From Rhizobium sp. NXC24 (GTDB lineage Bacteria > Pseudomonadota > Alphaproteobacteria > Rhizobiales > Rhizobiaceae), in the NCBI RefSeq assembly GCF_002944315.1, contig NZ_CP024311.1, forward strand, positions 844,501 to 908,500: a stretch of DNA of 64,000 nucleotides. The letters run 5' to 3'. The notes beneath the pieces are model-generated. The model was given only the letters and a program-made list of their open reading frames with translations. It made no database searches and had not been told where the DNA came from. Position 1 is the first letter of the stretch. Every line of letters starts with the position of its first letter. Both the position numbers and the translations under genes were made by a program. Shown here piece by piece: positions 4,582 to 60,175 of the stretch.

Positions 4582-5559
4582 TTGATCACGGCCTATTGCT
4601 CCGATTGCAAGTCCTTCGAATTGGCAGATCTTTCGACCGTTGCCCAATTGCCGGACAACGCCATCTGGATCGATATGGTCGAACCGTCGCGTGAAGAAGA
4701 GACGAACATCGAGCGCCTGCTGGGGCTCGAGGTGCCGACGCGCGAGGATATGAAGGACATAGAGCCCTCAAGCAGGCTCTATGTCGACGACGGCGCAGTT
4801 TTCCTGACGGCTTCGCTGCTGTGGAAGGCCGATACCAACCTGCCGACGCTGACCGATGTCGCTTTCATTTTGACGGGTCATCGCCTCATCACCATCCGCT
4901 ACGCGCGGCCGAAATCCTTTGCACTGTTCATTGCAGCGCTGCAGCGCATTCCGCAGGAGCGGCGCACCGGTGTCGCGCTTCTGGCGAAACTTCTGGAAAC
5001 CATTGTCGACCGCACGGCCGAGGTCCTTGAACAGACGGTTTCCAGCATCGATATATTGTCAGTGCATGTGTTCGGCGACCGTGTGAAAAAAATCCGTCGT
5101 CCGTCGAACTATCTGGAAGAGAAGCTGAAAGACATTGCAGGCTATCACCGCGCGGTCAGCAAGGTGCGCGACAGCCTGAGTTCATTGTCGCGGGTTTTGA
5201 CCTTCCTCCAAACCATCCCCGCCATGCAGCAGGACCGAGAGGCCAAGGAATTGTGCCGCAATGTCTCGCGGGATGTGCAATCTCTATCCGAACATGCGTC
5301 CTTCGTCGCCGGTAACATTACCTTCCTGCTGGATGCATCGCTCGGCCTGATCAATATCGAGCAGAACGCCATCATCAAGATTTTCTCGATTGCCTCCGTA
5401 GTCTTCTTGCCGCCGACGCTTGTTGCCTCGGTCTACGGCATGAACTTCGAGTTCATGCCGGAGTTGCATTTTGCCTACGGGTATCCGGCATCGTTGCTTT
5501 TGATGGTGGTGTCTGCCGTCGTTCCATTTTTCTTTTTTCGCTGGAAAGGCTGGCTCTGA
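4582..5559 (+). CDS. CorA-family divalent cation transporter
   Basis: 325 residues, TTG start with GAGGA 8 bases upstream. It has the CorA layout: a large cytoplasmic N-terminal domain rich in charged helices, then two membrane segments at the C-terminus with the signature YGMN at 285-288 in the loop after the first (IIKIFSIASVVFLPPTLVAS region). The family moves Mg2+ (sometimes Co2+ or Ni2+) across the inner membrane as a pentamer. The C-terminus after the last segment is short and basic (RWKGWL), as usual. It ends 17 bases before kup, so the two ion transporters are probably co-transcribed. A second CorA-family gene is at the right end of the window. Confidence 0.9.
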   Translation: MITAYCSDCKSFELADLSTVAQLPDNAIWIDMVEPSREEETNIERLLGLEVPTREDMKDIEPSSRLYVDDGAVFLTASLLWKADTNLPTLTDVAFILTGHRLITIRYARPKSFALFIAALQRIPQERRTGVALLAKLLETIVDRTAEVLEQTVSSIDILSVHVFGDRVKKIRRPSNYLEEKLKDIAGYHRAVSKVRDSLSSLSRVLTFLQTIPAMQQDREAKELCRNVSRDVQSLSEHASFVAGNITFLLDASLGLINIEQNAIIKIFSIASVVFLPPTLVASVYGMNFEFMPELHFAYGYPASLLLMVVSAVVPFFFFRWKGWL

Positions 5560-5576
5560 GAGTCTAGTGATCCTGA

Positions 5577-7478
5577 ATGTCTGACGAAACCCATCATTCT
5601 CCCGACGGGAAAATGAATCCACGCAAACTCTTCTACCTCGCCTTGGGGTCGGTTGGCGTAGTCTATGGTGATATCGGTACGAGCCCGCTTTACGCCTTTC
5701 GCGAGGCGCTGAAACCGGTAGCCGCCGATGGCCTGACGCGCGGCGAAGTCATCAGCCTCGTTTCGCTGATGTTCTGGGCGCTCACCATCATCGTCACCAT
5801 CAAATATGTCCTTTTTCTGCTGCGAGCGGACAATGATGGCGAAGGCGGCACGCTGTCGCTCTTGGCGCTGCTGATGAAGACGGCGAACGGGCACACCGCC
5901 GTTCTGATGCTGCTCGGCCTGTTGGGCGCGGCGCTCTTCCTTGGCGACGCAATGATCACGCCGGCGCTGTCGGTTCTTTCGGCTGTCGAAGGTCTGAAAT
6001 TGGTGACGCCGAGGCTGGCGGACTACATCGTGCCGATCTCGGTCGCGATCCTGGCGCTGCTCTTCGCGATCCAGTCGCATGGCACCGGCGCGGTCGCGCG
6101 CTTCTTCGGCCCGATCACGGCGCTCTGGTTCATCGTCATGGGCGCTGTCGGCATCATGCATATCTCGGATGATTTCGGCATTCTGGCCGCTTTGAATCCC
6201 TGGTATGCGATCAACTTCCTGATCAACGAGGGTTTTCTCGGTGTCGTCGTGCTTGGCGCGGTCTTCCTGACCGTCACCGGCGCGGAGGCACTTTACGCCG
6301 ATCTAGGGCATTTCGGCCGCCGTCCGATCCAATGGGCCTGGTTTGCCCTGGTGTTTCCGTCATTGACGCTGAATTATCTGGGGCAGGGTGCCTTGGTGCT
6401 GCGCCAGCCGCTCGCCATGTCCGACCCGTTCTTCTTGATGTATCCGCATTGGGCGATCCTGCCAGTGGTCATTCTCGCCACCCTGGCGACGATCATCGCC
6501 AGTCAGGCTGTCATCACCGGCGCCTTCTCGCTCACGCGGCAGGCCATTCACCTCGGCTTCCTGCCGCGCATGGAAATCCTCATCACCTCCGAGACCAATA
6601 CCGGCCAGATTTTCCTGCCTTCGGTTAACACGGTGCTGTTTTTCGGCGTCATCTTCCTGGTGTTGAGCTTCAAGACCTCGGATGCGCTGGCGACGGCCTA
6701 TGGCATCTCGGTGACCGGTGCGATGGTCGTCACCTCGATCATGGCCTTCGAATTCGTGCGTGTTCGCTGGAACTGGACGCTGCCGATGGCAGTGGGTGTG
6801 CTGGCGCCGCTGCTGTTGCTGGAATTCGTCTTCCTGGGCGCCAACCTTTTGAAGATTCACGACGGCGGCTATGTTCCGGTGCTGATCGCGACCGCCTTCA
6901 CAGTGATCATGTGGACTTGGCGTCGCGGTACGGCGATCCTGATGGAGAAGACGCGGCATACGGATATTCCGTTGTCGTCCTTCGTCAGTTCGATCGAGCG
7001 CAAGAGCGACCACTCGCCGGCGCATGTCCCGGGAACGGCGATCTTCCTCACCAGCGATCCGGAATCGGCACCGGCGGCGCTGCTGCACAATCTGAAGCAC
7101 AATCACGTTCTGCACGACAAGAACGTCATCCTGACGATCCGGACGATCAACAAGCCGCGTGTCGTACAGGAGGACCGCTACTCGGTCGAGAAAGTCTCCG
7201 ACCGCTTCTCGCGCGTCGAACTGCGCTTCGGCTTCATGGAATCGCAAAATGTTTCGCAGGCGCTGGCGACCCTGCGCAAGACCGGACTGAAGTTCGATAT
7301 CATGTCGACCTCCTTCTATCTCGGCCGCCGCAAGCTGGTTCCGGACGCCAAGTCGGGCATGCCGCATTGGCAGGACCGGCTCTACATCGCCCTCGCCAAT
7401 GCCGCGACCGACCCCTCGGACTATTTCCGCCTGCCGGCCAACCGCGTCGTCGAATTGGGCTCGCACGTCATCATCTGA
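5577..7478 (+). CDS. kup: Kup-family low-affinity potassium/proton symporter
   Basis: 633 residues, the usual size for Kup. The N-terminal motif [19 protein letters not shown] is diagnostic. About twelve hydrophobic segments fill residues 15-450, and a cytoplasmic C-terminal domain of about 170 residues follows. It takes up K+ with H+ at the inner membrane, and rhizobia often carry more than one copy. It starts at ATG 5577, 17 bases after the CorA gene; the ribosome binding site is weak, which fits coupling with the upstream gene. A clear terminator follows at 7506. Confidence 0.95.
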
Positions 7479-7505
7479 CGCGGATCAGTCAGCTTGCTTG
7501 CATCG

Positions 7506-7535
7506 AAGGCCCCGTGGATATCCGCGGGGCCTTTT
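7506..7535 (+). terminator. Rho-independent terminator after kup
   Basis: AAGGCCCCG and CGGGGCCTT form a 9 bp stem followed by TTTTGCTT, 28 bases after the kup stop. Confidence 0.85.
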
Positions 7536-7649
7536 GCTTGTAGGTTCATGAATAGATGCCGTACCGAGCGGCGGCCAGAATTAACCATCCATCAAGGTTA
7601 ATGCGAGATTATTTCGGCTCCTATCCCGAGTGCCGTTTGGAGTCCGGTA

Positions 7650-8828
7650 TTGTCTCGTCCGAGTCGTGTCCCCCGCAAGTATGGCCTCGTGCCGAAAAAC
7701 TGGACTTCGCCAGCCGTCTTCGGGCTTTGCGCATGGCTGATCTTTCCGTCGACGGCGGCCTATGCCGATCTTGCCGGTCTGCTGGCGGGCATCGACAGGG
7801 GGAGCAGCAACTGGCGGATGGTCATTACCAATTCACCGGCAGGTTCGACTCATCAGGCCGAGCTTGCCTTCGGCGACGCCTCGACCGCTGCTGCCATTGG
7901 CGACGCCGGTCTCGTCCTGCCCGATGGCCGCCGCGTTGCGTTCCGGTCGGAAGAAAAGGGCAGCGATCCCAGGCCGGACGAAGACCGCATCAATCGCCAG
8001 GACAAGAAGCGCAGGATAGTCGCCGTCGCGCCGATGCAGCCGCCCAAGGATTTTTCCGCTGGTTCCGTGCTGCAGCGTGAAAGCATGCTGTTGCGGCCCG
8101 AACTGGATACCAAGGACAAGACCGCTTTCCTGAAGCCGAAGATCGGCGGCAAGGAAATTCAGATCGCGACGGCCTTCTATCGAAAGGAGCCGCAGAAGCC
8201 GGACCATAGCGTGCCGTCCTATCTTGCGAGCCTGGTAACAAGCCAGGATGCCGATGTGCTCGCTGCCGCCTATGCGTCGCCGCCACCGGACTACGCCCGT
8301 GTCTCGCCCTTTGATTCGATTCTTGCCAAGGATCAGGACAACGCAGGCCGTTTCGTACCGCAGATCGGTCCTCAGGATCACGCCTGGGCCGCGAATGTTC
8401 TGCCGCCCTCGGTCTTTTCCTCGGACGAACAGCAATGCCTTGCCACCGGCATCTATTTTGAAGCGCGTGGGGAATCGGTGAAGGGGCAGGCGGCCGTCGC
8501 GCAGGTCATCCTCAACCGCGTCCGCAACCCAGCCTATCCGAAAACCATTTGCGGCGTCGTCTATCAGAACGACGATTGGCGTAATGCATGCCAGTTCTCC
8601 TTTGCCTGCGACAACGTCAAGGATCGGGTCAATTCGCCCGAACATTGGAAAGTCGCCCGCCAGGTCGCCATGGCGGTGACCGCTGGCAAAATCTGGCTGC
8701 CGGAAGTCGGTTCCGCCACGCACTATCACGCCGTCTACGTCCGGCCGAAATGGGCGGCCGAGATGGTGAAAGTCGGCCGCATCGGCATGCACATCTTCTA
8801 TCGGACCTATGGCGGCGGCTGGAGCTGA
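7650..8828 (+). CDS. SleB-family cell wall hydrolase
   Basis: 392 residues. Begins with a basic N-terminus and a hydrophobic segment (about 15-40, ending FPSTAAYA) that looks like a signal peptide or anchor. A long low-complexity middle follows, and the SleB/Hydrolase_2 domain is at about 275-392. The motif IYFEARGESVKGQAAVAQVI holds the conserved glutamate, and the C-terminal THYHAVYVRPKW matches family members that cleave peptidoglycan. The start is TTG 7650 with TGGAG upstream. No spore genes are expected in this lineage; the role is probably wall remodelling in the periplasm. It stands alone between two promoter-bearing gaps. Confidence 0.88.
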   Translation: MSRPSRVPRKYGLVPKNWTSPAVFGLCAWLIFPSTAAYADLAGLLAGIDRGSSNWRMVITNSPAGSTHQAELAFGDASTAAAIGDAGLVLPDGRRVAFRSEEKGSDPRPDEDRINRQDKKRRIVAVAPMQPPKDFSAGSVLQRESMLLRPELDTKDKTAFLKPKIGGKEIQIATAFYRKEPQKPDHSVPSYLASLVTSQDADVLAAAYASPPPDYARVSPFDSILAKDQDNAGRFVPQIGPQDHAWAANVLPPSVFSSDEQQCLATGIYFEARGESVKGQAAVAQVILNRVRNPAYPKTICGVVYQNDDWRNACQFSFACDNVKDRVNSPEHWKVARQVAMAVTAGKIWLPEVGSATHYHAVYVRPKWAAEMVKVGRIGMHIFYRTYGGGWS

Positions 8829-8998
8829 CGGTCGATTGCGCGGCGGGACTGATCTGGCCCAGTGAGCGATAAAAAGGCCACAGAAAAACCCGGCCTGAAG
8901 AGGATTCTTCGGCTCAGTTTTACGCCGGCATCGCATATTCGCCCTAAGATTATGATTTAATTCGGCTAATTTATGGCTGGACAGATGACGTCTACGCC

Positions 8999-9027
8999 TT
9001 GACTATGCTTTTTCCTAAAACTATGTT
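8999..9027 (+). promoter_or_regulatory. Housekeeping promoter of the F0 ATP synthase operon
   Basis: TTGACT (8999-9004), a 17-base spacer and TATGTT (9022-9027) fit the sigma-70-type consensus, about 105 bases before atpI. The rest of the 303-base gap 8829-9131 shows nothing else. Confidence 0.6.
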
Positions 9028-9131
9028 GCGCGCGACTTCAAACGGGCCGAAAAGGTGGCGAAACCTGCCGTTCGTTTATGCGTTGACCGGGGTAATGGGA
9101 TAGCGCGCAACGAAAATGGGAGGACATCACC

Positions 9132-9476
9132 ATGGCGGATGACCGCGACGAAGGTCTGGAAAAGCGACGAGAGCAATTGGAAGCCGAGCTGGCGAACAAG
9201 CGTTCTGCGTTGGGAGAGGATGAACGAGGGGAGGTTCGCGCCGAGGAGAGCCGCAAAGGCTATGCCCAGGCGATGAAGCTTTCTAGTGAATTCATCGCTG
9301 CCATCATCGTTGGCGCTGTTCTGGGCTATTTCTTCGACCGTTTTGTCGGCACGACGCCGTGGGGCATGATTATTCTTCTGCTTCTCGGATTTTGTGCCGG
9401 CGTTCTGAATGTTTTGCGCTCTGCAGGCAAGGTGGCGACACCAATGCTTGAAAAGCACGGGCTAGATAAGAAATGA
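9132..9476 (+). CDS. atpI: F0F1 ATP synthase assembly protein AtpI
   Basis: 114 residues: a charged, helical N-terminus (1-48) and two membrane segments (about 52-72 and 76-96) in the typical AtpI form ([21 protein letters not shown] and a GLY-rich second helix). AtpI helps assemble the c-ring in the inner membrane. First gene of the F0 operon, with GGGAGGACATCACC before the ATG. The F1 genes are not here, which is normal for Rhizobiales, where F0 and F1 are in separate operons. Confidence 0.93.
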
Positions 9477-9555
9477 GGCGGAAGCGGCGCTACGGTGCAG
9501 TTTCCTGGTGAGAGGCATCCGCTTTGACGAGCGGGAAAATGAAAGAGAACAAGCG

Positions 9556-10308
9556 GTGGCAAACGGACCTACCCATCAGTTCCTGATCTTCAAGATTATC
9601 CCGATCGATATCGGCGGAATTGATTTTTCGTTCACCAATGCTTCGCTGTTCATGGTTGCCTCGGCAGTTATCTCTGCCGGCTTCCTCTATTTCGCCACCT
9701 CGCATCGCAGCGTCATTCCGAGCCGCGCCCAGTCGGTGGCGGAGATGTCTTATGAGTTCATCGCCTCGATGCTGAAAGAAGGGGCGGGAACCAAGGGGAT
9801 GAAGTTCTTCCCGCTGGTCTTCTCACTCTTCATGTTCGTGCTGACGGCGAACCTGCTTGGCATGGTTCCCTATTTCTTCACCGTCACCAGCCAAATCATC
9901 GTCACGTTTGCACTGGCGCTTCTGGTCATCCTGACGGTCATTCTCTACGGCGTCATCAAGCATGGCTTCGGCTTTTTCAAGCTCTTCGTGCCGCAGGGCG
10001 TTCCCGGCATTCTTCTGCCGCTGGTGGTGATCATCGAAATCATCTCCTTCCTGTCGCGGCCCATTTCACTCTCCGTTCGTCTTTTCGCCAACATGCTGGC
10101 AGGCCATATCACGCTTAAGGTGTTCGCAGGCTTCGTTGCCTCGCTCGGAGCCCTTGGTGCGCTTGGCATCGGCGGCGCCATTCTTCCCCTGATCATGACC
10201 GTCGCCCTGACCGGTCTCGAGTTCCTCGTCGCCTTCCTCCAGGCTTACGTCTTTGCGGTGCTGACTTGCATGTACCTCAATGACGCAATCCATCCGGGTG
10301 GCCACTAA
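9556..10308 (+). CDS. atpB: ATP synthase F0 subunit a
   Basis: 250 residues from the GTG at 9556, matching the usual rhizobial length. An upstream GTG at 9508 is in frame but adds a charged extension not expected in the family. It spans the membrane five or six times. The conserved proton-channel helix contains [14 protein letters not shown], with the essential arginine. Subunit a works with the c-ring to carry protons. It follows atpI by 79 bases and precedes atpE by 69. Confidence 0.95.
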
Positions 10309-10377
10309 GGATTACCGACATTGACGTCTGCAGGGCGTCAGTCATTCGCCGCAACAACCATTTCAAAGGAGTTCAAC

Positions 10378-10605
10378 ATGGAAGCGGAAGCAGCAAAGTT
10401 CATCGGCGCAGGTCTGGCTTGCTTTGGTATGGCCGGTACGGCTCTCGGCCTCGGCAACATCTTCGGCAGCTACCTGTCCGGCGCACTTCGCAATCCGTCT
10501 GCCGCTGACAGCCAGTTCGGCCGTCTGGTATTCGGCTTCGCCGTTACGGAAGCTCTGGGCATCTTCTCGCTGCTCATCGCTCTCCTCCTGCTCTTCGCCG
10601 TCTGA
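10378..10605 (+). CDS. atpE: ATP synthase F0 subunit c
   Basis: 75 residues forming two membrane helices with a polar loop RNPSA at 38-42 that contacts F1. The ion-binding carboxylate is Glu58 (FAVTEALG). Glycine-rich first helix [18 protein letters not shown] lies 6 bases before the ATG, a strong ribosome binding site in keeping with the high copy number of the c subunit. Confidence 0.96.
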
Positions 10606-10684
10606 TATCAACGGCATGATAGATCACGGTTCGCGGGACAGCGGGCCGTGATTCTTTGTATTTGCAGACCACCTGGAGGTGAGC

Positions 10685-11278
10685 ATGTTTGTGACCCCGG
10701 CATATGCTGAAGAAGCACCGCCGGCAGCCGGCGCGGTGCATACGGAGACGGGTGCGCCCGATCAGGGCCATCACGCAGGCGTATTCCCGCCGTTTGACCA
10801 TACGACGTATCCGTCACAGCTCCTTTGGCTGGTGATCACCTTCGTCATCTTCTACGTGGCCATGCAGAAGATCGTTATTCCGCGCGTCGGCGGCATTCTG
10901 GAAAGCCGGCACGATCGCATCGCCCAGGATATCGACGAAGCCTCGCGTCTGAAGGCCGAAGCCGATGCTGCCGTTGCGACCTACGAAAGCGAATTGGCCG
11001 CAGCGCGCGCCAAGGCAAATTCGATCGGCGCCACCGCCCGCGACGCCGCCAAGGCAAAGGCTGAGGAAGATCGCAAGGCGATCGAAGCAAGCCTTTCGGA
11101 AAAGCTGAAGGCCGCTGAGGTCCGTATCAGCGAGATCAAGGCGAAAGCCTTCGGCGATGTCGGCGCCATTGCTGAAGAAACGGCCGCTGCCGTTGTCGAG
11201 CAGCTCGTCGGCAACGTCGCCGGCCAGGCAGACGTCGCTTCGGCTGTCGCCGAAGCATCCGCCAAGCGGGAGGGTTGA
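10685..11278 (+). CDS. atpG: ATP synthase F0 subunit b'
   Basis: 197 residues from the ATG at 10685, which has GGAGG 5 bases upstream; a GTG at 10679 lies inside that site and is less likely. After a short alanine-rich leader, one membrane segment ([20 protein letters not shown], about 40-60) is followed by a long alanine/glutamate/lysine coiled coil. It forms the peripheral stator stalk as a heterodimer with b. Symbol atpG here is the rhizobial name for b' (atpF2 elsewhere), not F1 gamma. Confidence 0.93.
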
Positions 11279-11281
11279 TCC

Positions 11282-11773
11282 ATGGAATTCGGTCTCGACG
11301 AAACTTTCTTTGCATTCGTCGCTCTCATCATCTTCCTCGGCCTCATCGTCTATCTGAAGGTGCCGGGCATGATGGCCAAGTCGCTGGACGACCGCGCCGA
11401 TCAGATCCGTAACGATCTGGCTGAAGCCAAGCGCCTGCGTGAAGAAGCCCAGCATCTTCTGGCTGAATACCAGCGCAAGCGGAAGGAAGCCGAAGCCGAA
11501 GCAGCCCATATCGTTGCGGCCGCCGAACGCGAAGCTGAAATGCTGACGACGGAAGCTCGCAAGAAGACGGAGGAATTCGTCGCCAACCGTACGGCGCTTT
11601 CCGAGCAGAAGATCAAGCAGGCGGAAGCCGATGCGATGAAGGCGGTCCGTTCCGCCGCCGTCGATCTGGCCATCGCTGCCGCTGAATCCGTGCTCGCCAA
11701 GAAGGCCGACGGCCACGTTCAATCGGAACTCTTCAGCAACGCCGTTGGCGAAGTGAAGTCACGGTTGAACTGA
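11282..11773 (+). CDS. atpF: ATP synthase F0 subunit b
   Basis: 163 residues. One N-terminal membrane helix (about 7-27) precedes a long alpha-helical coiled coil rich in Glu, Ala and Lys. It starts 3 bases after the b' stop, so the two stator subunits are made in a coupled way. It ends the F0 operon; a terminator follows at 11798. Confidence 0.95.
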   Translation: MEFGLDETFFAFVALIIFLGLIVYLKVPGMMAKSLDDRADQIRNDLAEAKRLREEAQHLLAEYQRKRKEAEAEAAHIVAAAEREAEMLTTEARKKTEEFVANRTALSEQKIKQAEADAMKAVRSAAVDLAIAAAESVLAKKADGHVQSELFSNAVGEVKSRLN

Positions 11774-13563: not shown

Positions 13564-14719
13564 AGAGCAGCGAAAGCTGCACGCCGCTGCCATCCGGCGG
13601 CACAAACAGGTCGTCGCGCAATGCGATACTGCGGCGGGTGAGCTCCAGCCGCTTGGTTGCCATTTCGAAACGGCGGCTGATCTGCCAGGCATAGGGGCCT
13701 GCGCCCTTCATGCGTTTGCCGAACTCGGCATCGTAATCCTTGCCGCCGCGCATGGAGCGGATCAGCGACATGACATGGCGGTAGCGATCCGGATAGTTCT
13801 GCAGCAGCCAGTCGCGGAAGAGCGGGCTGACCTCCAGCGGCAGGCGCAGGATGACATAGGTTGCTTCCAGGGCGCCGGCGGCCTTGCTGGCGTCGAGGAT
13901 GCGCTCGATTTCGTGGTCGTTGAGCGCCGGAATGATCGGCGCCACCATGACTGCCGTCTGGATACCGGCCTCGCTGAGCACCCGGATCGCCTCCAGCCGC
14001 CGCTGCGGCGTCGCCGCGCGCGGTTCCATGGTGCGCGCCAGCTTGCGGTCGAGCGTGGTCACGGAAATACCGACCCGAACCAGGTTCTTGGCGGCCATCT
14101 CTTGGAGAATATCGATATCGCGCATGATCAGCGCTGACTTGGTGACGATCGCAACCGGATGGTTTGCCTTGTTCAGCACTTCGAGAATCTGCCGCATGAT
14201 GCGCCATTCCTTCTCGATCGGCTGATAGGGGTCGGTATTGGTGCCGATGGCGATGACGCGCGGCTTGTAGCCGGGCTTGGCCAGCTCCCGTTCCAGAAGC
14301 CGCGCCGCGTCCGGCTTGGCGAAGAGCTTTGATTCGAAATCGAGTCCCGCCGACAGGCCCATATAGGCATGCGTCGGCCGTGCGAAACAATAGATGCAGC
14401 CATGCTCGCAGCCACGATAGGGATTGATGGAACGATCGAAGGATATATCGGGCGATTCGTTGCGTGTGATTGCCGTACGCGGCTTCTCCACCTGGACTTC
14501 GGTTTTGAAAGGCGGCAGTTCTTCGAGTGTTTGCCAGCCGTCATCGAATGTCTCACGTCGCAGCGGTTCGAATCGGCCGCTCGGGTTCAGCCCGGCGCCG
14601 CGACCGCGCCGGCGGTCGATCTCGACTCTGAGACCGGTGTCGGCGATCAAAGCATTGGCAACATCTGCCGTATTGGCAGGCGCAAATGCGACCTGCCCTG
14701 CAAGGGACTGCTCGTTCAT
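13562..14719 (-). CDS. PA0069-family radical SAM protein
   Basis: 385 residues. The radical SAM cluster motif CEHGCIYC has Cys104, Cys108 and Cys111 (CxxxCxxC). The flanking SINPYRGCEHGCIYCFARPT and the later GTNTDPYQPIEK place it in the PA0069/SPL-related family, whose substrate is not established. The enzyme should bind a 4Fe-4S cluster and S-adenosylmethionine in the cytoplasm. The start has CGGAG 6 bases upstream. It lies upstream of and in the same direction as rnhB, but 190 bases and a repeat separate them. Confidence 0.88.
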   Translation of the reverse strand: MNEQSLAGQVAFAPANTADVANALIADTGLRVEIDRRRGRGAGLNPSGRFEPLRRETFDDGWQTLEELPPFKTEVQVEKPRTAITRNESPDISFDRSINPYRGCEHGCIYCFARPTHAYMGLSAGLDFESKLFAKPDAARLLERELAKPGYKPRVIAIGTNTDPYQPIEKEWRIMRQILEVLNKANHPVAIVTKSALIMRDIDILQEMAAKNLVRVGISVTTLDRKLARTMEPRAATPQRRLEAIRVLSEAGIQTAVMVAPIIPALNDHEIERILDASKAAGALEATYVILRLPLEVSPLFRDWLLQNYPDRYRHVMSLIRSMRGGKDYDAEFGKRMKGAGPYAWQISRRFEMATKRLELTRRSIALRDDLFVPPDGSGVQLSLL

Positions 14720-14959: not shown

Positions 14960-15478
14960 ATGTTGACAGTAATCATCGAATGCCAGGATCAGGAACCTGA
15001 GCTGGCGCAGACATTGGCGGCCCTGGTAGCGGGCGCGATCGAAGGTTTGGTGTGCGACGTCGTCGTGCTCGATCATGGCTCGCGTGATGGCACCTCGCAT
15101 GTGGCCGACGCTGCCGGCTGCCGTTTCTATTCCCAGTGGGATATCAAAGACATACTGCATTCGGCGCGCGGCGAATGGCTGCTTTTCGTCGAGCCCGGCG
15201 CCCGCCCGCAAGCCGGCTGGATCGATGAGATTGCCGAATATGTCTCGCTGAATAAGGTGCCGGCGCGCTTCACCGCGTCGCGGGGTTATCGACGGCCTTT
15301 GTTCCAGCGCATCGGCCGCAGCCTGCCGCCTCTGGAACTGGGTTTGCTCCTCTCCAAGCGACAGGCCATCGCCGCCGCCAAAACGGGCATGCGGCTTGCC
15401 GAATTCGCCAGGGGGCAAAAGAGCCGCCAACTGTCGAGCGAGCTAATTCCCTCTTGGGTCGCACGCGCGGCAAGGTAG
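14960..15478 (+). CDS. Small family 2-like glycosyltransferase
   Basis: 172 residues from ATG 14960, a start that gives the usual N-terminal strand MLTVIIECQD; upstream in-frame codons run through a stable hairpin and are unlikely to be translated. The Rossmann-like GT-A part is visible: VVVLDHGSRDGTSHVADAAG is the typical UDP-sugar-binding stretch, and WLLFVEPGARP replaces the DxD-containing strand, without a clear DxD. The protein ends where a normal GT2 continues, so it is a short form. Role may be surface polysaccharide or may be non-catalytic. It is flanked by a divergent radical SAM gene and a small secreted protein. Confidence 0.7.
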   Translation: MLTVIIECQDQEPELAQTLAALVAGAIEGLVCDVVVLDHGSRDGTSHVADAAGCRFYSQWDIKDILHSARGEWLLFVEPGARPQAGWIDEIAEYVSLNKVPARFTASRGYRRPLFQRIGRSLPPLELGLLLSKRQAIAAAKTGMRLAEFARGQKSRQLSSELIPSWVARAAR

Positions 15479-15656
15479 CGCATTGTAATCAATCCAGATT
15501 CCATTTGAAAATAAGAGAATTTCTGTCATAATTTTCATATGGCGGCACGTCTCGCGTGTCGCGTCAGGCGGCCGACCATGAAGATGCCGGTATGCGGCAG
15601 AGCAGGTCAGCGGAACTCTCCTCTTCCGCCGGATTTCCGGCGAAAGGAGGTGCGTC

Positions 15657-15971
15657 ATGGGACGCACGATGCTCTGCCGCCTCATCGGAACGGCCCTTGT
15701 GGCAACGGCAATCCTTCATCCGAGTACTGCAGCTTCGCAAGCGATGTTCGCATGCGCTGAACGCGCCGATATGGTCGCTTTTCTGGAAGCGCACTATTCC
15801 GAAAAGCTCTCGGCCATTGGTCAGCTCGATCCGAGGAATATTATCGAGGTCTTTGCTGCTGAAAGCGGCAGTTGGACAATGATGATCACCGGTGTCTCCG
15901 GCCGAAGCTGCGTGATCCTCACGGGTCAGAATTGGGAATCAATTCCTGCCTTGCCTGGATCGAAGGCATAA
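15657..15971 (+). CDS. Small secreted protein of unknown function
   Basis: 104 residues with a good signal peptide (basic start, hydrophobic 8-22, ending STAASQA), so the mature form is about 77 residues and periplasmic. It contains two cysteines (in FACAERAD and GRSCVIL) that could form a disulfide. The ATG is preceded by AAAGGAGGT, an almost perfect ribosome binding site. I recognise no function. It converges on moaB, with 9 bases between the stops. Confidence 0.75.
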   Translation: MGRTMLCRLIGTALVATAILHPSTAASQAMFACAERADMVAFLEAHYSEKLSAIGQLDPRNIIEVFAAESGSWTMMITGVSGRSCVILTGQNWESIPALPGSKA

Positions 15972-15980
15972 AGCGCCAGC

Positions 15981-16535
15981 TTATTTTGAGCCGGCACCGC
16001 GCTTTAGATGTTCATCGAGCCGCGGCATGATCTCCACGAAATTGCAGGGCATATGGCGGTAGTCGAGTTGCGCCTTTAAAATGCCGTCCCAGGCATCCTT
16101 GCAGGCGCCAGGGGAGCCCGGCAGCACGAAGATGAAGGTGGCGTTGGCAACGCCGCCGGTTGCACGCGACTGGATCGTCGCCGTGCCGATCTTGTCGTAG
16201 GAGATGCGATGGAACACCTCGGAAAACCCGTCCATCCGCTTTTCGAACAAGGGCTCCAGCGCTTCGGGCGTGACATCGCGGCCGGTAAAGCCGGTGCCGC
16301 CGGTGGTGATGACGACGTCGATGGTTTCGTCCTGCGTCCAGGCCTCCACCTGGCTTCGAATACGCTTTTTGTCGTCGGGAACGATGGCGCGCGCAGCCAA
16401 CCTATGACCGGCTTCCGCGATACGGGCAACCAGCGTATCGCCGGACTTGTCGTCGGCGAGCGTGCGCGTATCGGAAACGGTCAGCACCGCGATGCCGACG
16501 GGGATGAAGGACCTTGCTTCGCTTGAACCGGTCAT
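15981..16535 (-). CDS. moaB: Molybdenum cofactor biosynthesis protein B
   Basis: 184 residues of the MoaB/Mog fold: VLTVSDTR at the start, then DVVITTGGTGFTGRDVTPEA, the signature that binds molybdopterin, and the late PGSPGAC. MoaB is involved in adenylylating molybdopterin before metal insertion. The start ATG overlaps the stop of ispE (TGATG), with GGGAG upstream, which implies translational coupling. Confidence 0.92.
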   Translation of the reverse strand: MTGSSEARSFIPVGIAVLTVSDTRTLADDKSGDTLVARIAEAGHRLAARAIVPDDKKRIRSQVEAWTQDETIDVVITTGGTGFTGRDVTPEALEPLFEKRMDGFSEVFHRISYDKIGTATIQSRATGGVANATFIFVLPGSPGACKDAWDGILKAQLDYRHMPCNFVEIMPRLDEHLKRGAGSK

Positions 16536-17446
16536 CACGCGTCTCCCTTGATCGTTTCCGTCGCCTGGAAATACCAGTCCGGCCTTAAGCTGTGAAGCGA
16601 TGCCGCCGCCGCTGTCGCCTGCTCAAGATTATCGAACAGACCGAAGCAGGTGGCGCCTGAGCCGGACATGCGTGTGGCGAGCGCCCCTTGGCTCTCGATC
16701 AATTGCGAGAGCGTGGCGATTTCGTTGCAGAGCATTCGTGCCGGCGGCTCCAGATCGTTGCGCAACCCCTCAATGGTCTCGATCCATTGCATGCGGCCAT
16801 TTGTTGCCTGCAAGGGGAGTACGAATGGCGGATTGTCCTTTCGGGCCAGCATGCGAAACACCTCCGGCGTCGAAACGCCGACGAGGGGATTGCCGAGCAC
16901 CATAGCAAAAGATGGAAAGTCCGGCAGAAGTTCGATCACTTCGCCGATGCCGCGTGCGATCAGCGGGCGGCTGGCCAGGCACATTGGCACATCGGCGCCG
17001 AGCTTCAGTGCAATCGCGTTCACCACATCGGAAGGCAAGGCGAGGTCCCAGAGCCGTGCCAGCCCACGCAGGGTCGCCGCCGCATCCGCCGAGCCGCCGC
17101 CGATGCCGGAGGCGACGGGAAGGTTCTTTTCGAGATGGATGTGGACGGGCGGCGCTTCGAAACCCTCGGCATGAGCCGCCCGTCGCAGCAGATCGCGTGC
17201 CTTCAGCACCAGATTGCCGCCTGTATCCTCCTCGGCAAGAAGAGGGGAGAAGCGTCCGGACAGGCTGAATTCGTCATGCTCGCTTGCGCGAAAACCTAAA
17301 CGATCGCCATGCCGCGCAAAAGTAACGAGCATGTCGAGCAGATGATACCCATCGGCCCGCCGGCCCGTTACGTGCAGGGCCAGGTTGATCTTGGCGGGCG
17401 CCTCCTCCGTGACGTCGAAATCGTCAGCCGCAAAGATCGTCGTCAT
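16535..17446 (-). CDS. ispE: 4-diphosphocytidyl-2-C-methyl-D-erythritol kinase
   Basis: 303 residues. GHMP kinase: PAKINLALHVTGRRADGYH at 17-35 and the ATP-binding PVASGIGGGSADAA at 110-123; Lys19 and Asp121 match the catalytic pair. It performs the ATP-dependent step of the methylerythritol phosphate pathway to isopentenyl diphosphate. It starts 8 bases after the TPR gene and overlaps moaB by one base, so TPR-ispE-moaB look like one operon. Confidence 0.95.
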   Translation of the reverse strand: MTTIFAADDFDVTEEAPAKINLALHVTGRRADGYHLLDMLVTFARHGDRLGFRASEHDEFSLSGRFSPLLAEEDTGGNLVLKARDLLRRAAHAEGFEAPPVHIHLEKNLPVASGIGGGSADAAATLRGLARLWDLALPSDVVNAIALKLGADVPMCLASRPLIARGIGEVIELLPDFPSFAMVLGNPLVGVSTPEVFRMLARKDNPPFVLPLQATNGRMQWIETIEGLRNDLEPPARMLCNEIATLSQLIESQGALATRMSGSGATCFGLFDNLEQATAAAASLHSLRPDWYFQATETIKGDA

Positions 17447-56191: not shown

Positions 56192-56803
56192 TCAAAGCTG
56201 GCGAATGATGTCGCGGAGCTGTTCGTTGCGCGCGCCAAGCAGCAACACGTTGCGGATGGCGATCTGCGGATCGTGTGTGTGGAAGAGTACGCCGTTGCCT
56301 CGGACCTCGCGGTTGATCGTCAGTTTCTTTTCCGGCGATTCCTGATCCGGCAAGACGGCGACGGCAAAATACATCCGCGAATATTTCAGGCTGATATTTT
56401 CGAAGAAATTGTCGTTCTGCCCGATGCGGGCAAAGAAGTTGGCGATGTAGAAGGCCCAGCTCACCTCTTCATACTGCGCAAATTGCGTTCGCGCCGCAGT
56501 GACATGGCAATAACCGAGATGCGGCGTGTCCTTCAGCGTGTGATGGAAGATCAGCTTCGGAAAACGAATCGATTGGTGAAAGCTGTTCAGCCGATCGTGG
56601 GTCTTTTCGCCAGCATTCCGCAGCTTATTCGCCGTGCGCTCGGCCACTTCCTCATAGCTGAGATAGCGCCGCTCTTCGGCCAGCCAATGCGCCCTGTCGC
56701 GGGTGATGCGGCCGGTGCGCAGGAATTCGCTATGGGAGGCCGCCGGCAATTCCGGTTCCGGTTCGGCGGGCTTCTTGGCGTCGAAATATCTGAGCTTGGC
56801 CAT
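56192..56803 (-). CDS. Conserved hypothetical protein
   Basis: 203 residues, no signal or membrane helix. Rich in charged and aromatic residues (HTLKDTPHLGYCHVTAARTQ, FFARIGQNDNFFENISLKYS). I do not recognise a family. It follows the Sua5 gene upstream on the same strand with 57 bases between, so it may be the first gene of that run. The CHVTAARTQ segment and the repeated histidines might bind a metal, but nothing proves it. Confidence 0.65.
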   Translation of the reverse strand: MAKLRYFDAKKPAEPEPELPAASHSEFLRTGRITRDRAHWLAEERRYLSYEEVAERTANKLRNAGEKTHDRLNSFHQSIRFPKLIFHHTLKDTPHLGYCHVTAARTQFAQYEEVSWAFYIANFFARIGQNDNFFENISLKYSRMYFAVAVLPDQESPEKKLTINREVRGNGVLFHTHDPQIAIRNVLLLGARNEQLRDIIRQL

Positions 56804-56903
56804 GGCGGCACTCTCGGTATGGGTATGGATAGCAGTTAATAGATCGCCTAGCTTGAGCCGGGCTTAAGCGCGCCACGCTGGGATGTTTGGAAGGATCAGA
56901 GCC

Positions 56904-57317
56904 ATGCCGGGTATCACCGAACTCAAACTGCTGATTGCGAGCATGAAGCCAAATCTCATTGAAGGCGAATTCGTCTTTTGCTGCGTGCCGCCTTCAATGC
57001 TGACAGACTATATCCATTTGAAGCCGATCGGAATGTTCCACGAAAAAGAGGGAATGACGCTGATCCTTCCGATCGAGGCCGCCCGGCAGGCGGGGCTTCC
57101 GGCTGAACCCGCCATGCGAATGATTAGCCTAGACGTCCATTCCTCGCTGGAGGCCGTGGGCTTGACGGCGGCCTTTGCTATGGCACTCGGAAGCGAGGGC
57201 ATCAGCGCCAATGTCGTTGCGGCCTATTATCATGACCATATCTTCGTGCCGATCGCCGATGCCGAGCGTGCCATGGCGGCATTGAAGGCGCTCTCCGCCG
57301 GACAAGATCGTCCCTAA
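56904..57317 (+). CDS. ACT-domain-containing small protein
   Basis: 137 residues from ATG 56904, with AAGGAT upstream. It is built of two ACT-like halves: about 5-70 (KPNLIEGEFVFCCVPPSMLT, IEAARQAGLPA) and about 72-130 (MRMISLDVHSSLEAVGLTAA, AMALGSEGISANVVAAYYHD). This is the ACT_7/DUF2241 arrangement. ACT domains bind amino acids and control enzymes; no partner enzyme is nearby. It lies just upstream of the riboswitch region, transcribed in the same direction, with 231 bases between. Confidence 0.85.
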   Translation: MPGITELKLLIASMKPNLIEGEFVFCCVPPSMLTDYIHLKPIGMFHEKEGMTLILPIEAARQAGLPAEPAMRMISLDVHSSLEAVGLTAAFAMALGSEGISANVVAAYYHDHIFVPIADAERAMAALKALSAGQDRP

Positions 57318-57548
57318 AATTCATCGCCCATCGCTCTGTCGCAATCAAGATAAAGCGTCATGGAGCGCAGAATGGTTCACACGGACGATCGTCTTGCCGG
57401 GACCGAGCTAATAGTTTGAATTGGTTCGTATTATCGCGACAAAATTCGCGTCATTTCCAAGCTTCATCTCACCTGTCGCCAATTTCGAAGCCGATGTCGC
57501 ATTGCAGCAGAGCGACGCGTGAGGCGGGAGCTATGATGACCTCAATCT

Positions 57549-57723
57549 CAAGGTGCCGTCTATTAGGGAGGCGGAGAATTGGGAAGCCGGTCAAAATCCG
57601 GCGCTGCCCCCGCAACGGTGGTGGAGTGAGGCATGGCAGATAAAGCCACTGGGTCGAGAACAACCTGGGAAGGCGCCATGGGGTCCTCTTGAGGACCGCT
57701 CCAGAGCCCGGAAACCAGCCTTG
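57549..57723 (+). promoter_or_regulatory. Cobalamin (AdoCbl) riboswitch
   Basis: The canonical elements occur in order: P1 CAAGG (57549-57553) with CCTTG (57719-57723), GGGAAGCCGGT...ATCCGGCGCTGCCCCCGCAAC with the core GCTGCCCCCGCAAC at 57603-57616, GCCACTG at 57645-57651, GGGAAGGCGC near 57666-57675, and AGCCCGGAAACCAGCC ending at 57720. This is a textbook B12 element on the plus strand, so it controls the Rieske oxygenase operon that starts at 57840. Two stretches after it (TGCCTA 57806-57811 and TAGGCA 57833-57838; TCCTC 57801-57805 and GAGGA 57828-57832) could hide the ribosome binding site. Confidence 0.93.
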
Positions 57724-57839
57724 GGGACGACAGATTTCACTGACCGCGGCGGGCAGTCGGGGGGTAATGCGTTGGGCTGTTTAAGGCCGGCCGGTGCATG
57801 TCCTCTGCCTACTGCCTGGTATTGCACGAGGATAGGCAC

Positions 57840-59084
57840 ATGGATATCGGCACCGACGTTTTGCGACAATTGAAGAACCGCCGCCAGGGTTTCAGCCTGG
57901 AGCAGGCCTTCTACACCGACCCCGATTATTTCAAGCTCGACATGGAGATGATCTACTATCGCGACTGGCTGTTCATCGGCCATGATTGCGAAGTGCCGCG
58001 GGCCGGCAATTATTTCACGGTCCAGGTCGGCGATTATCCCGTCGTTATCGTCCGCGGCCGGGATCAGGTCATCCGCGCCTTCCACAATAGTTGTCGCCAC
58101 CGCGGCTCGCGTGTCTGCGCATCCGAGCGCGGTTCTTCGGCCAAGCTTGTCTGCCCTTACCATCAGTGGACCTACGAACTCGACGGTTCGCTGCTCTTCG
58201 CCCGGCAGATGGCGGAGGATTTCGACAAGAGCCAGTTCTCCCTGAAGCCGGTTCACTGCGAGAGCGTCGGCGGCTACATCTTCATCTGTCTGGCGAAAAA
58301 CGCCCCGGATTTCTCCCCGGTCCGCGCCGCGATCGAGCCTTACATGGCGCCGCATCGCATCGGCGAGACGAAGGTCGCCTTCCAGAGCACCATTATCGAA
58401 AAGGGCAATTGGAAGCTGGTATGGGAGAACAATCGCGAGTGCTATCACTGCGCCGCCAATCATCCGGAGCTCTGCCGTACCTACCCGGAAGCGCCGACCA
58501 TCACGGGTGTACAAGGTGCGATGAACGATCCCCTCATCACTGAGCACTGGCAGCGCTGCGAAGCCGCCGGCTTGCCGAGCCAATTCAAGATCGCACCCGA
58601 TGGTCAGTTCCGCGCCGCCCGCATGCCGCTGATCGAAGGGGCTGAAAGCTACACCATGTCCGGCAGGCGCGCCGTCAAGCGGCCGCTATCGCCTGACGTC
58701 ACCATCAACAATATCGGTGCGATGATCCTGTTCCATTACCCGACAACGTGGAACCATCTTCTCGGCGACCACGCCATTTCCTTCCGCGTGCTGCCGATCA
58801 GCGCCGAGGAAACCGCGGTCACCACCAAATGGCTGGTGCATAAGGATGCGGTAGAGGGCGTCGACTATGACCTCGAGGAACTGACCCATGTCTGGACGGA
58901 AACCAACGATCAGGACCGTCGCATCGTCGAGGAAAATGCCTTCGGTATACGCTCGCCGGCCTATGAGCCCGGCCCCTATTCGGAACTCCACGAGGGCGGC
59001 GTCATGCAGTTCGTCGAGTGGTACTCGAATTTCATGATCAACCGGCTGCAGGGCGATCAGGCCAAGCTGTCGGCGGTTGCCTGA
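57840..59084 (+). CDS. Rieske non-heme iron oxygenase, betaine demethylase type
   Basis: 414 residues from ATG 57840, with GAGGA 7 bases upstream. The Rieske 2Fe-2S ligands are C85, H87, C105 and H108 (CRH and CPYH). The mononuclear iron site is NNRECYHCAANHPE with His203 and His208. The general layout matches the alpha subunits that remove methyl groups from glycine betaine (GbcA), stachydrine (Stc2) or carnitine-like compounds, releasing formaldehyde. The substrate cannot be fixed by eye. It is co-transcribed with its reductase 2 bases after its stop, and the leader contains a cobalamin riboswitch, so adenosylcobalamin should lower its expression. Confidence 0.88.
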   Translation: MDIGTDVLRQLKNRRQGFSLEQAFYTDPDYFKLDMEMIYYRDWLFIGHDCEVPRAGNYFTVQVGDYPVVIVRGRDQVIRAFHNSCRHRGSRVCASERGSSAKLVCPYHQWTYELDGSLLFARQMAEDFDKSQFSLKPVHCESVGGYIFICLAKNAPDFSPVRAAIEPYMAPHRIGETKVAFQSTIIEKGNWKLVWENNRECYHCAANHPELCRTYPEAPTITGVQGAMNDPLITEHWQRCEAAGLPSQFKIAPDGQFRAARMPLIEGAESYTMSGRRAVKRPLSPDVTINNIGAMILFHYPTTWNHLLGDHAISFRVLPISAEETAVTTKWLVHKDAVEGVDYDLEELTHVWTETNDQDRRIVEENAFGIRSPAYEPGPYSELHEGGVMQFVEWYSNFMINRLQGDQAKLSAVA

Positions 59085-59086
59085 GT

Positions 59087-60175
59087 ATGAACATGACCAT
59101 CTCTCTCCGTCATCAGCACCTGGATCAGATGCAGCCATGGAGCGACAGGCAGCATCTGCTCGAATGCCTGTCGGCAACGCCGGAAGCGCCCGATGTGATG
59201 ACCTTCACATTCCGCTCCGACAAGGATAATTGGTTCCGCTATCTGCCGGGCCAGTTCGTAACCCTGGAACTGCCGACGGCGCCCGAGCCGGTCATGCGCA
59301 CCTACACGCTTTCCTCGACACCGTCGCGGCCCTTTTCCGTGGCCGTCACGGTGAAGGCGCAGAAGGACAGCATCGGCACGCGCTGGATGTTCGAGAACCT
59401 GAAGCCCGGTATGCGCATCAAGGCTTTCGGCCCGCTCGGCGATTTCAGCCACATCCGTCATCCCGGCGAAAAATATCTCTTCGTTTCGGCCGGCTCCGGC
59501 ATCACGCCGATGATGGCGATGACGCGCTACATGGCCGACACAGGGCCCTTGTCGGACATCACCTTCGTCAATTGCTCGCGCAGCCCCGCCGACATCATCT
59601 TCCGCTCGGAGCTGGAATATCTCGCCCGCTTCATGCCGAACCTCGATCTCGGCTTCATCGTCGAAGGCTGCGGCCGCACCGATCTCTGGTCGGGGCTGAA
59701 GGGCCGCATCGACAAGGCAAAGATCGGACTGCTCGCGCCAGATTTCATGGAACGCACCATCTTCTGCTGCGGCCCTGAAGTCTTCATGGATGCCGTCCGC
59801 TCCATGCTGGAAGCCCACGGCTTCGACATGGCGCGCTACCATCAGGAAAGCTTCCAGCCGGCGCAGGCGGCAACGCCGCTGGCCGAAGTCAGCGATGACG
59901 CGTCGATGGACGCGGCGACCTCGATCCGCTTCACCATGGCCGGCAGGGATGTCGCCTGCGCCCCAGGCCAGACGATCCTGCAGGCCGCGCGCGGCGCCGG
60001 CGTACGCATCGGTGCTGCCTGCGAATCCGGTCTCTGCGGCACCTGCAGGGTGATGAAACTGTCGGGCGAGGTCGAGATGAACCATAATGGCGGCATCCTC
60101 GACGACGAAATCGACGAAGGCTACATTCTGGCCTGCTGTTCGCGGCCTAAAACGGATGTGCAGATAGAAGCCTAA
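59087..60175 (+). CDS. Ferredoxin-NAD(P)H reductase partner of the Rieske oxygenase
   Basis: 362 residues. Order: FAD-binding domain (about 40-120, YLPGQFVTLEL with RTYTLSSTPS), NAD-binding domain (about 130-230, FVSAGSGITPMMAM and CCGPEVFMDA), then a C-terminal plant-type 2Fe-2S ferredoxin (about 280-362, CESGLCGTCRVMK and a late Cys in ACCSRP). This is the GbcB/StcC type that delivers electrons from NAD(P)H to the oxygenase. Chosen start ATG 59087, 2 bases after the upstream stop; ATG 59093 is close. A 16 bp perfect inverted repeat follows the stop. Confidence 0.92.
   Translation: MNMTISLRHQHLDQMQPWSDRQHLLECLSATPEAPDVMTFTFRSDKDNWFRYLPGQFVTLELPTAPEPVMRTYTLSSTPSRPFSVAVTVKAQKDSIGTRWMFENLKPGMRIKAFGPLGDFSHIRHPGEKYLFVSAGSGITPMMAMTRYMADTGPLSDITFVNCSRSPADIIFRSELEYLARFMPNLDLGFIVEGCGRTDLWSGLKGRIDKAKIGLLAPDFMERTIFCCGPEVFMDAVRSMLEAHGFDMARYHQESFQPAQAATPLAEVSDDASMDAATSIRFTMAGRDVACAPGQTILQAARGAGVRIGAACESGLCGTCRVMKLSGEVEMNHNGGILDDEIDEGYILACCSRPKTDVQIEA

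Follow-up and report, generated by a model that had tools for sequence, protein, structure and literature searches.

The window analysed here, a 64-kb stretch of the genome of Rhizobium sp. NXC24, carries a cobalamin riboswitch followed by a two-gene operon for a Rieske oxygenase and its reductase. RF00174 was the sole family at gathering level in an Rfam covariance scan (cmscan) of the whole window. Its match, at 57534-57737 on the plus strand, covered the complete model (1-189 of 189) with 108.9 bits (gathering threshold 31.5, E-value 2.4e-26), and the oxygenase start follows 102 nt downstream on the same strand. The first-pass annotation of this DNA had described a complete B12 element upstream of, and co-stranded with, a Rieske oxygenase, which the full-length match confirmed. 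From the edges it had drawn (57549-60175), the right one was exact, whereas the left one lay 15 nt inside the aptamer.

The aptamer was aligned with those of 23 relatives. A strongly conserved stretch in this 24-sequence alignment, GCTGCCCCCGCAAC (57603-57616, plus strand), would hold loop L5, by analogy with described cobalamin riboswitches. Behind the aptamer there is a P13-like hairpin (57740-57760, plus strand) with the stem CTGAC/GTCGG, whose loop CGCGGCGGGCA is complementary to L5 and is likely its kissing-loop partner L13. Read from the sequence only, the RF00174 core is conserved and both L5 and its downstream L13 partner are present. Further on, the minimum free energy fold calculated with ViennaRNA predicted a ribosome-binding site (RBS) hairpin (57807-57837, plus strand), in which GCCTA (57807-57811) pairs with TAGGC (57833-57837), and CCT (57815-57817) with the AGG (57829-57831) of the Shine-Dalgarno (SD) sequence GAGGAT (57828-57833). 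In described translational switches, the kissing loop stabilises P13, the RBS hairpin is favoured and translation stops (PMC10653944). Because the window leader has the P13/L13 and RBS-hairpin layout of these switches, the predicted sign is OFF with B12.

The same platform was recognized in relatives, in a set of 91 switch-bearing leaders (the window, 37 named relatives and 53 genomes of the family sample, see below) from which two degenerate sites were left out. A GCGGnGGGY loop complementary to L5 followed the aptamer in 90 of them, with a stem of at least three pairs in all 90; the sole leader without this hairpin was the partly degenerate L206. SD pairing was calculated over the 80 nt preceding the start codon and compared with dinucleotide shuffles, leaving aside two switch-bearing and four switch-less leaders with no recognisable SD. 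It averaged 0.81 in 89 switch leaders, against 0.64 in their shuffles, and 0.55 against 0.58 in 59 switch-less leaders (five at p ≤ 0.05, median p 0.65). The window leader had a value of 0.66, against 0.54 for its own shuffles, a difference that is weak alone.

The oxygenase gene (57840-59084, plus strand) encodes a Rieske non-heme iron protein of 414 aa of the GbcA/Stc2 type. There are two in-frame ATGs, at 57798 and 57840, and the good SD belongs to the second; the stop codon is at 59082-59084. A base-equivalent of ATG 57840 was found in all 80 named relatives, at the start of the match in 79 and six bases earlier in L091. After a gap of exactly the two bases annotated before (59085-59086) comes the GbcB-like reductase (59087-60175, plus strand; 362 aa), recognized by Pfam and NCBIfam, with FAD, NAD and [2Fe-2S] domains (FAD_binding_6, NAD_binding_1 and Fer2). 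The oxygenase carries the Pfam domains Rieske (PF00355) and Ring_hydroxyl_A (PF00848), with the Rieske motif at residue 85, Asn198 and CYHC at 201. The solved structures closest to it were the uncharacterised 3n0q, with 563 bits, and 3vca/4qup, with 537 bits, the latter two of which we take to be the stachydrine demethylase Stc2 of Sinorhizobium meliloti. In a protein tree the window oxygenase clade stood apart from Stc2. Group Vb Rieske oxygenases are the glycine betaine and stachydrine demethylases, group Va those acting on carnitine and choline (PMC7948474). An Asn in place of the Va aromatic residue separates Vb from Va (PMC7948474), and the Vb rule combines it with C-x-x-C by the mononuclear iron (PMC7948474, PMC10952381). 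Asn198 and the CYHC at 201 place the window oxygenase in group Vb, and it is a predicted N-demethylase. Glycine betaine and stachydrine were not separated as substrates by NCBIfam, PDB matches or the tree.

Other riboswitches and an Mtg-like cluster in the genome

The genome comprises 7.3 Mb in four contigs, and its nearest named relative among the matches listed was R. leucaenae (96% protein identity). Scoring of 150 of the 417 candidates from a first look yielded RF00174 at four places, the window site included. One site (133.8 bits) lies upstream of btuF/btuC-like genes, and two sub-gathering sites (29.7 and 27.6 bits) precede cobU/cobW-like and cbtB/cbtA-like genes, all names being read from translations rather than taken from a family scan. 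Of the four, only the window operon has no genes for B12 or cobalt supply.

Three genes of the MttB family are present. One, MttB-A, is the MtgB orthologue beside a corrinoid cluster, and all co-occurrence counts of MtgB below refer to it. By homology, this cluster (L017) encodes MttB-A (MtgB-like, 8006-9586), a B12-binding corrinoid protein (MtgC-like, 9840-10550), a pterin-binding protein similar to methyl-tetrahydrofolate:corrinoid methyltransferases (MtgD-like, 13752-14717) and a RACo-type reactivase (15074-17119). It also holds DUF1638, MTHFR-C and MetF-like genes; the 18-kb locus showed no MtgE-like gene. The MtgB-, MtgC-, MtgD-, MetF-, DUF1638- and RACo-like set matches the B12-dependent MtgBCDE system of Ruegeria pomeroyi, so that a B12-dependent counterpart to the oxygenase is present in the same genome. 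Mutants in mtgC and mtgD show that such a gene set carries glycine betaine demethylation in R. pomeroyi, and in S. meliloti an mtgBCDE set is colocalised, beside a cob operon (PMC12478193).

Among solved structures, MttB-A matched PDB 4yyc with 1074.7 bits and the glycine betaine methyltransferase 9yce with 412.5 bits. Its paralogues L016 and L018 matched 9yce with 422 and 338 bits. Similarity alone therefore cannot tell which MttB takes glycine betaine. The 4yyc protein is presumably from S. meliloti. The genome also has two Rieske paralogues (61% and 44% identity), and the custom covariance model detected no riboswitch in the 16-kb locus of either.

Co-occurrence of the riboswitch and MtgB in relatives

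We compared the presence of the switch and of MttB-A in three samples of genomes. The named relatives were the best 80 of at least 583 confirmed ones, each with at least 80% identity. RF00174 was found ~100 nt upstream of the Rieske orthologue in 37 of them. One locus, L021, was cut 41 bp upstream of the Rieske gene and excluded, leaving 42 assessable switch-less loci. MttB-A (at least 86% identity) was present in 37/37 switch-bearing genomes, against 4/42 switch-less ones (L063, L070, L079 and L082); in the other 38 it was not found in the contigs as deposited, some of which are metagenome-assembled genomes. Among these 38, R. freirei (L030) had only divergent MttB-family matches (34-35%). 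The association gave a Fisher p of 3e-18, with relatedness ignored. The custom model, run over all 42 switch-less loci, recovered remnants in L029 and L030 and a chance-level match in L094 (10.6 bits, E-value 0.26). Any MttB as the partner was rejected, a 40-44% paralogue being present in 28 of the 37 switch-bearing genomes, compared with 37 for MttB-A.

The family sample comprised 198 genomes. A Rieske orthologue at E ≤ 1e-185 was found in 81 including our own, and the other 80 were analysed, so that the MttB counts cover genomes with the orthologue. This sample overlaps with the named relatives in at least one genome (G314/L047). The switch state was taken from 700 bp upstream of the gene for 78 genomes and from the order-sample scan for G101 and G144. 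A simple aptamer regular expression recognized 34 of 37 known positives and none of 42 negatives. It missed eight MttB-A sites and two degenerate sites in the family sample, and was therefore replaced by Rfam (20 of the 78 loci) and the custom model (all 78). MttB-A (75-93% identity) was present in 56/80 genomes, 54 of which had the switch; the exceptions, G289 and G355, belong to one genus. In the 24 genomes without any MttB at E ≤ 1e-60, the switch was absent from 22 and degenerate in two (G282 and G350, from one genus). Conversely, 54 of the 56 genomes with a switch site had MttB-A, the other two being those with degenerate sites. Where the counterpart was missing, the switch was thus absent from 38/38 named relatives and 22/24 family genomes, and, as we read the alignments, broken in the remaining two.

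The order sample comprised 120 genomes, in which 20 Rieske loci besides the window were scanned. A switch lay upstream of the Rieske gene in seven, six of them in other families. The comparison with MttB used the best Rieske match per genome with at least 50% identity, a line drawn after the fact. All eight switch-bearing rows (the window, L175-L179, L181 and L182; three from one genus, g47) had an MttB with 65-100% identity to MttB-A, whereas none of the seven switch-less ones (L174, L180 and L183-L187) had an MttB at E ≤ 1e-60. More distant Rieske loci (43-49% identity; L188, L189, L191-L193 and L195) had no switch; their proteins fall into different Rieske clades, and the genomes G145, G177 and G084 have an MttB. 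The first-pass annotation had named absence of the riboswitch-oxygenase pairing from relatives as refuting its claim, and had suggested looking for an MtgB partner in other Rhizobiales. The pairing was present in the 37 named relatives and seven order-sample loci, and MttB-A accompanied the switch in all three samples. A chance or local oddity of the pairing was rejected by this conservation.

In two genomes without MttB-A, the loss of the switch has left a scar. Compared with L061, an identically placed 105-nt piece of the aptamer core is deleted from R. lusitanum SEMIA 4060 (L029; junction at about 2849) and from R. freirei (L030; junction at about 2851), a natural knock-out of the switch. 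Both flanks are retained, including CCGGAAACCAGCC and the SD region. The remnants scored 16.1 and 19.7 bits in the custom model, and the L13 motif is altered too. As L029 and L030 are sisters in the tree, the deletion may be a single event. In the MtgB-less G282 and G350, our reading of the alignments is that the B12 and 3' boxes are broken; the G282 site has also lost the L13 motif. G255, which has MttB-A, carries a partly degenerate switch (68.8 bits). A CobN match and RF00174 sites above the cut-off were found in 15/15 genomes tested, seven of which lack MttB-A (G010, G011, G015, G017, G024, G032 and G038), showing that general B12 use was retained in those seven.

To account for relatedness, a tree was built from 127 Rieske genes (80 named relatives, the window, 40 of the 78 family genomes and six order loci). 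Without L021, 60 rows had the switch and MttB-A, 58 neither, six MttB-A only and two a degenerate switch only. The tree required 12-13 changes for the switch and 14 for MttB-A. Among nine independent pairs differing in MttB-A, the switch differed in the same way in 5.8 (degenerate sites taken as present) or 6.8 (taken as absent) and in the opposite way in 0.0, with a median sign-test p of 0.031 (0.031-0.0625) and 0.016 (0.016-0.031), respectively. For nine pairs differing in the switch, MttB-A agreed in 6.6-7.2 and was opposed in 0.0 (median p 0.016). In the clade of L051, L063, L070, G294 and G378, none of the five rows has the switch and only three are without MtgB, which suggests that the switch can go first and that MtgB, freed by this, may follow.

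Of five switch-bearing neighbourhoods inspected, three have informative genes. In G121, from another family, a compact, betaine-like locus was seen (L332, about 4792-11574): the switch-Rieske-reductase unit faces an oxidoreductase gene with DAO and GCV_T domains, an architecture we take to be of the dimethylglycine/sarcosine dehydrogenase type, and an MttB gene. The G121 oxygenase groups with 3n0q, near Stc2 and outside the window clade, so that the riboswitch pairing occurs in two Rieske clades. In G126, some 280 bp separate the riboswitch-Rieske-reductase operon from a complete MetH gene (L334:8472-12272), which lies downstream of it in the same orientation. G137 (L333) has a MetH-type stand-alone homocysteine-methyltransferase domain and a MetR-like gene nearby. 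The three settings fit betaine methyl metabolism. No such clue was seen around the operons of G194 (L335) and G144 (L336), for which open reading frames (ORFs) were listed and one L335 gene was scanned.

Several side observations were made on these loci. In L333 a second, divergent RF00174 site (136 bits; L181:801-1005, minus strand, or about 5414-5618 in L333) stands back to back with the one before the Rieske gene and precedes a 113-aa unnamed ORF and the MetR-like gene. In Ciceribacter lividus and a relative (L129:785-988 and L130), RF00174 precedes a BluB-like gene for lower-ligand synthesis, named from its translation. The six switch-less MttB-A genomes of the named and family samples would be good test cases for constitutive oxygenase expression. 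In the window, the riboswitch is directly preceded by a gene for an ACT-domain protein (56883-57317), and upstream of it, on the opposite strand, lies one for a DUF6656 protein (56192-56803); neither has a visible tie to the operon.

Proposed role of the switch and rival explanations

In our view the O2-dependent, B12-independent oxygenase is very probably a B12-repressed back-up of corrinoid, Mtg-type betaine demethylation, as MetE is to MetH. The likeliest shared substrate would be glycine betaine; homology and the L332 neighbourhood are the sole observations that speak to a common substrate. The following scheme is our inference as regards the ligand, the substrate and products, the direction of regulation and why the switch is co-lost. 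With ample B12, a riboswitch of the adenosylcobalamin type would lower translation of the two-gene operon, and the Mtg route (MtgB/MtgC/MtgD) would pass the betaine methyl group to tetrahydrofolate. When B12 falls, the switch would open and the oxygenase take over demethylation, the group Vb oxygenase and its reductase using O2 and NAD(P)H to convert a carboxylated betaine, glycine betaine being the likeliest, to dimethylglycine and formaldehyde. Once MtgB is lost, the switch would turn harmful, because no demethylase would be left at high B12, and would then be deleted or decay. A B12-repressed route with a B12-dependent counterpart had been proposed in the first-pass annotation; the Mtg-like cluster and the tracking of MtgB by the switch agree with it, as comparative support.

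The proposal resembles metE/metH and class I ribonucleotide reductase/nrdJ, in which, of two enzymes with a shared function, it is likewise the B12-independent one that carries a B12-repressible leader. Here, however, the pair would be a Rieske betaine demethylase and a corrinoid betaine methyltransferase, catabolic and with one O2-consuming member. R. lusitanum JHI1118 (G043, L142) has RF00174 before MetE-like and NrdI/NrdE-like genes (names read from translations). With GbcAB of Pseudomonas and Chromohalobacter, the window pair shares a Rieske oxygenase with a dedicated reductase, the group Vb signature and the best NCBIfam models, but it lies below both curated cut-offs and has an RNA regulator in its leader. 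The known regulators in Pseudomonas are proteins. Stc2 is alike in motifs but falls in a different clade, and the locus of the 61% Rieske paralogue (L014) had no riboswitch match. Bacteria with GbcAB have been contrasted to bacteria with MtgBCDE (PMC12478193). The available text of that source contains no riboswitch on betaine demethylation, the sole mention being a reference on SAR11 glycine. In the papers searched, including excerpts of PMC2211319 and PMC4809877, we saw neither gbcAB nor any Rieske betaine demethylase described with a cobalamin riboswitch in front; a supplementary listing in PMC3766115 (15 Rhizobiales genomes) is possible.

Several findings weigh against the back-up role. 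The best NCBIfam models scored below their curated cut-offs, GbcA with 530 bits against 670 for the oxygenase and GbcB with 381.5 against 500 for the reductase. We therefore file the pair as GbcAB-like and not as GbcAB; the earlier label of a betaine-type demethylase was right as to the family, but GbcAB identity is not certified. The window operon is distant from the Mtg cluster, and no betaine gene was noticed beside it. SD sequestration shows at the level of the group, with p ≤ 0.05 in 24 of 89 switch leaders and a median p of 0.17. The co-occurrence is not a perfect rule either. Six of 66 rows with MtgB have no switch, so MtgB does not require it, and the G282 and G350 sites are called degenerate by our own reading of the alignments; the latter (L247) scores 56.3 bits in Rfam, above the gathering threshold, and keeps the L13 motif. 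The tree is a gene tree of the Rieske protein and not of species, and the test on it is small, single pairings reaching p 0.0625. An earlier tree, of 81 rows, yielded three agreeing pairs and none opposed, too few for the test (median p 0.25).

The same switch logic might serve another shared substrate, such as stachydrine, a longer betaine or another quaternary amine. This is in line with the Stc2-type and uncharacterised structures closest to the oxygenase, with the missed GbcA cut-off, and with the varied substrates of MttB-family enzymes (PMC12478193). We consider it unlikely, as the window clade is apart from Stc2 in the protein tree. The oxidoreductase facing the L332 unit, presumably a dimethylglycine/sarcosine dehydrogenase by architecture, also speaks against it, as does the name mtgBCDE borne by the S. 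meliloti cluster (PMC12478193). It is rather improbable that switch and MtgB were both lost through lineage history or reduced B12 use, with no functional tie between oxygenase and MtgB. Both traits are clustered on the tree, with only nine independent pairs, and the controls were CobN and RF00174. Nevertheless, no independent pair went the opposite way, the seven MtgB-less genomes tested all retain a CobN match and other B12 riboswitches, the two loci with an excised aptamer core (L029 and L030) are also those of genomes missing the MtgB orthologue, and the pattern recurs across families.

The remaining two explanations change either what the oxygenase does or the sign of the switch. Many cobalamin riboswitches govern B12 synthesis or uptake genes (PMC3766115), as the btuF/btuC-, cobU/cobW- and cbtB/cbtA-like genes at the other three sites of this genome illustrate, and the first-pass annotation had offered a part for the oxygenase in corrin metabolism as its alternative. 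Such a role in corrin or lower-ligand metabolism, with regulation like that of a B12 synthesis gene, is hardly credible given the group Vb quaternary-amine signature, the retention of the oxygenase and, where tested, CobN in switch-less genomes, and the tracking of MtgB by the switch. That B12 turns the operon ON is highly improbable. One activating corrinoid riboswitch has been described, but P13/L13 followed by an SD-sequestering hairpin is a repressing layout, as in btuB (PMC10653944), and an activating switch need not vanish with MtgB.

Implications for betaine turnover in Hyphomicrobiales

Extending the back-up role beyond the window, we think it fairly probable that B12 status, through an RNA switch, decides the fate of the betaine methyl group across Hyphomicrobiales, methyl-tetrahydrofolate when B12 is ample and formaldehyde when it is scarce, and that switch and corrinoid enzyme form one inherited unit. 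If true, a catabolic pair would join the short list of B12-dependent and -independent isozymes under a cobalamin RNA. An RNA switch that is co-lost with a distant gene would also allow the function of riboswitch-controlled genes to be assigned cleanly. Besides its BHMT-like enzyme, S. meliloti possesses a betaine-demethylating route (Barra et al. 2006, as reported in PMC12478193), and the link between switch and MtgB would bear on that route. Betaine turnover in soil and plant-associated bacteria would be tied to vitamin B12, and one bacterium would make formaldehyde or methyl-folate from betaine depending on its B12 supply.

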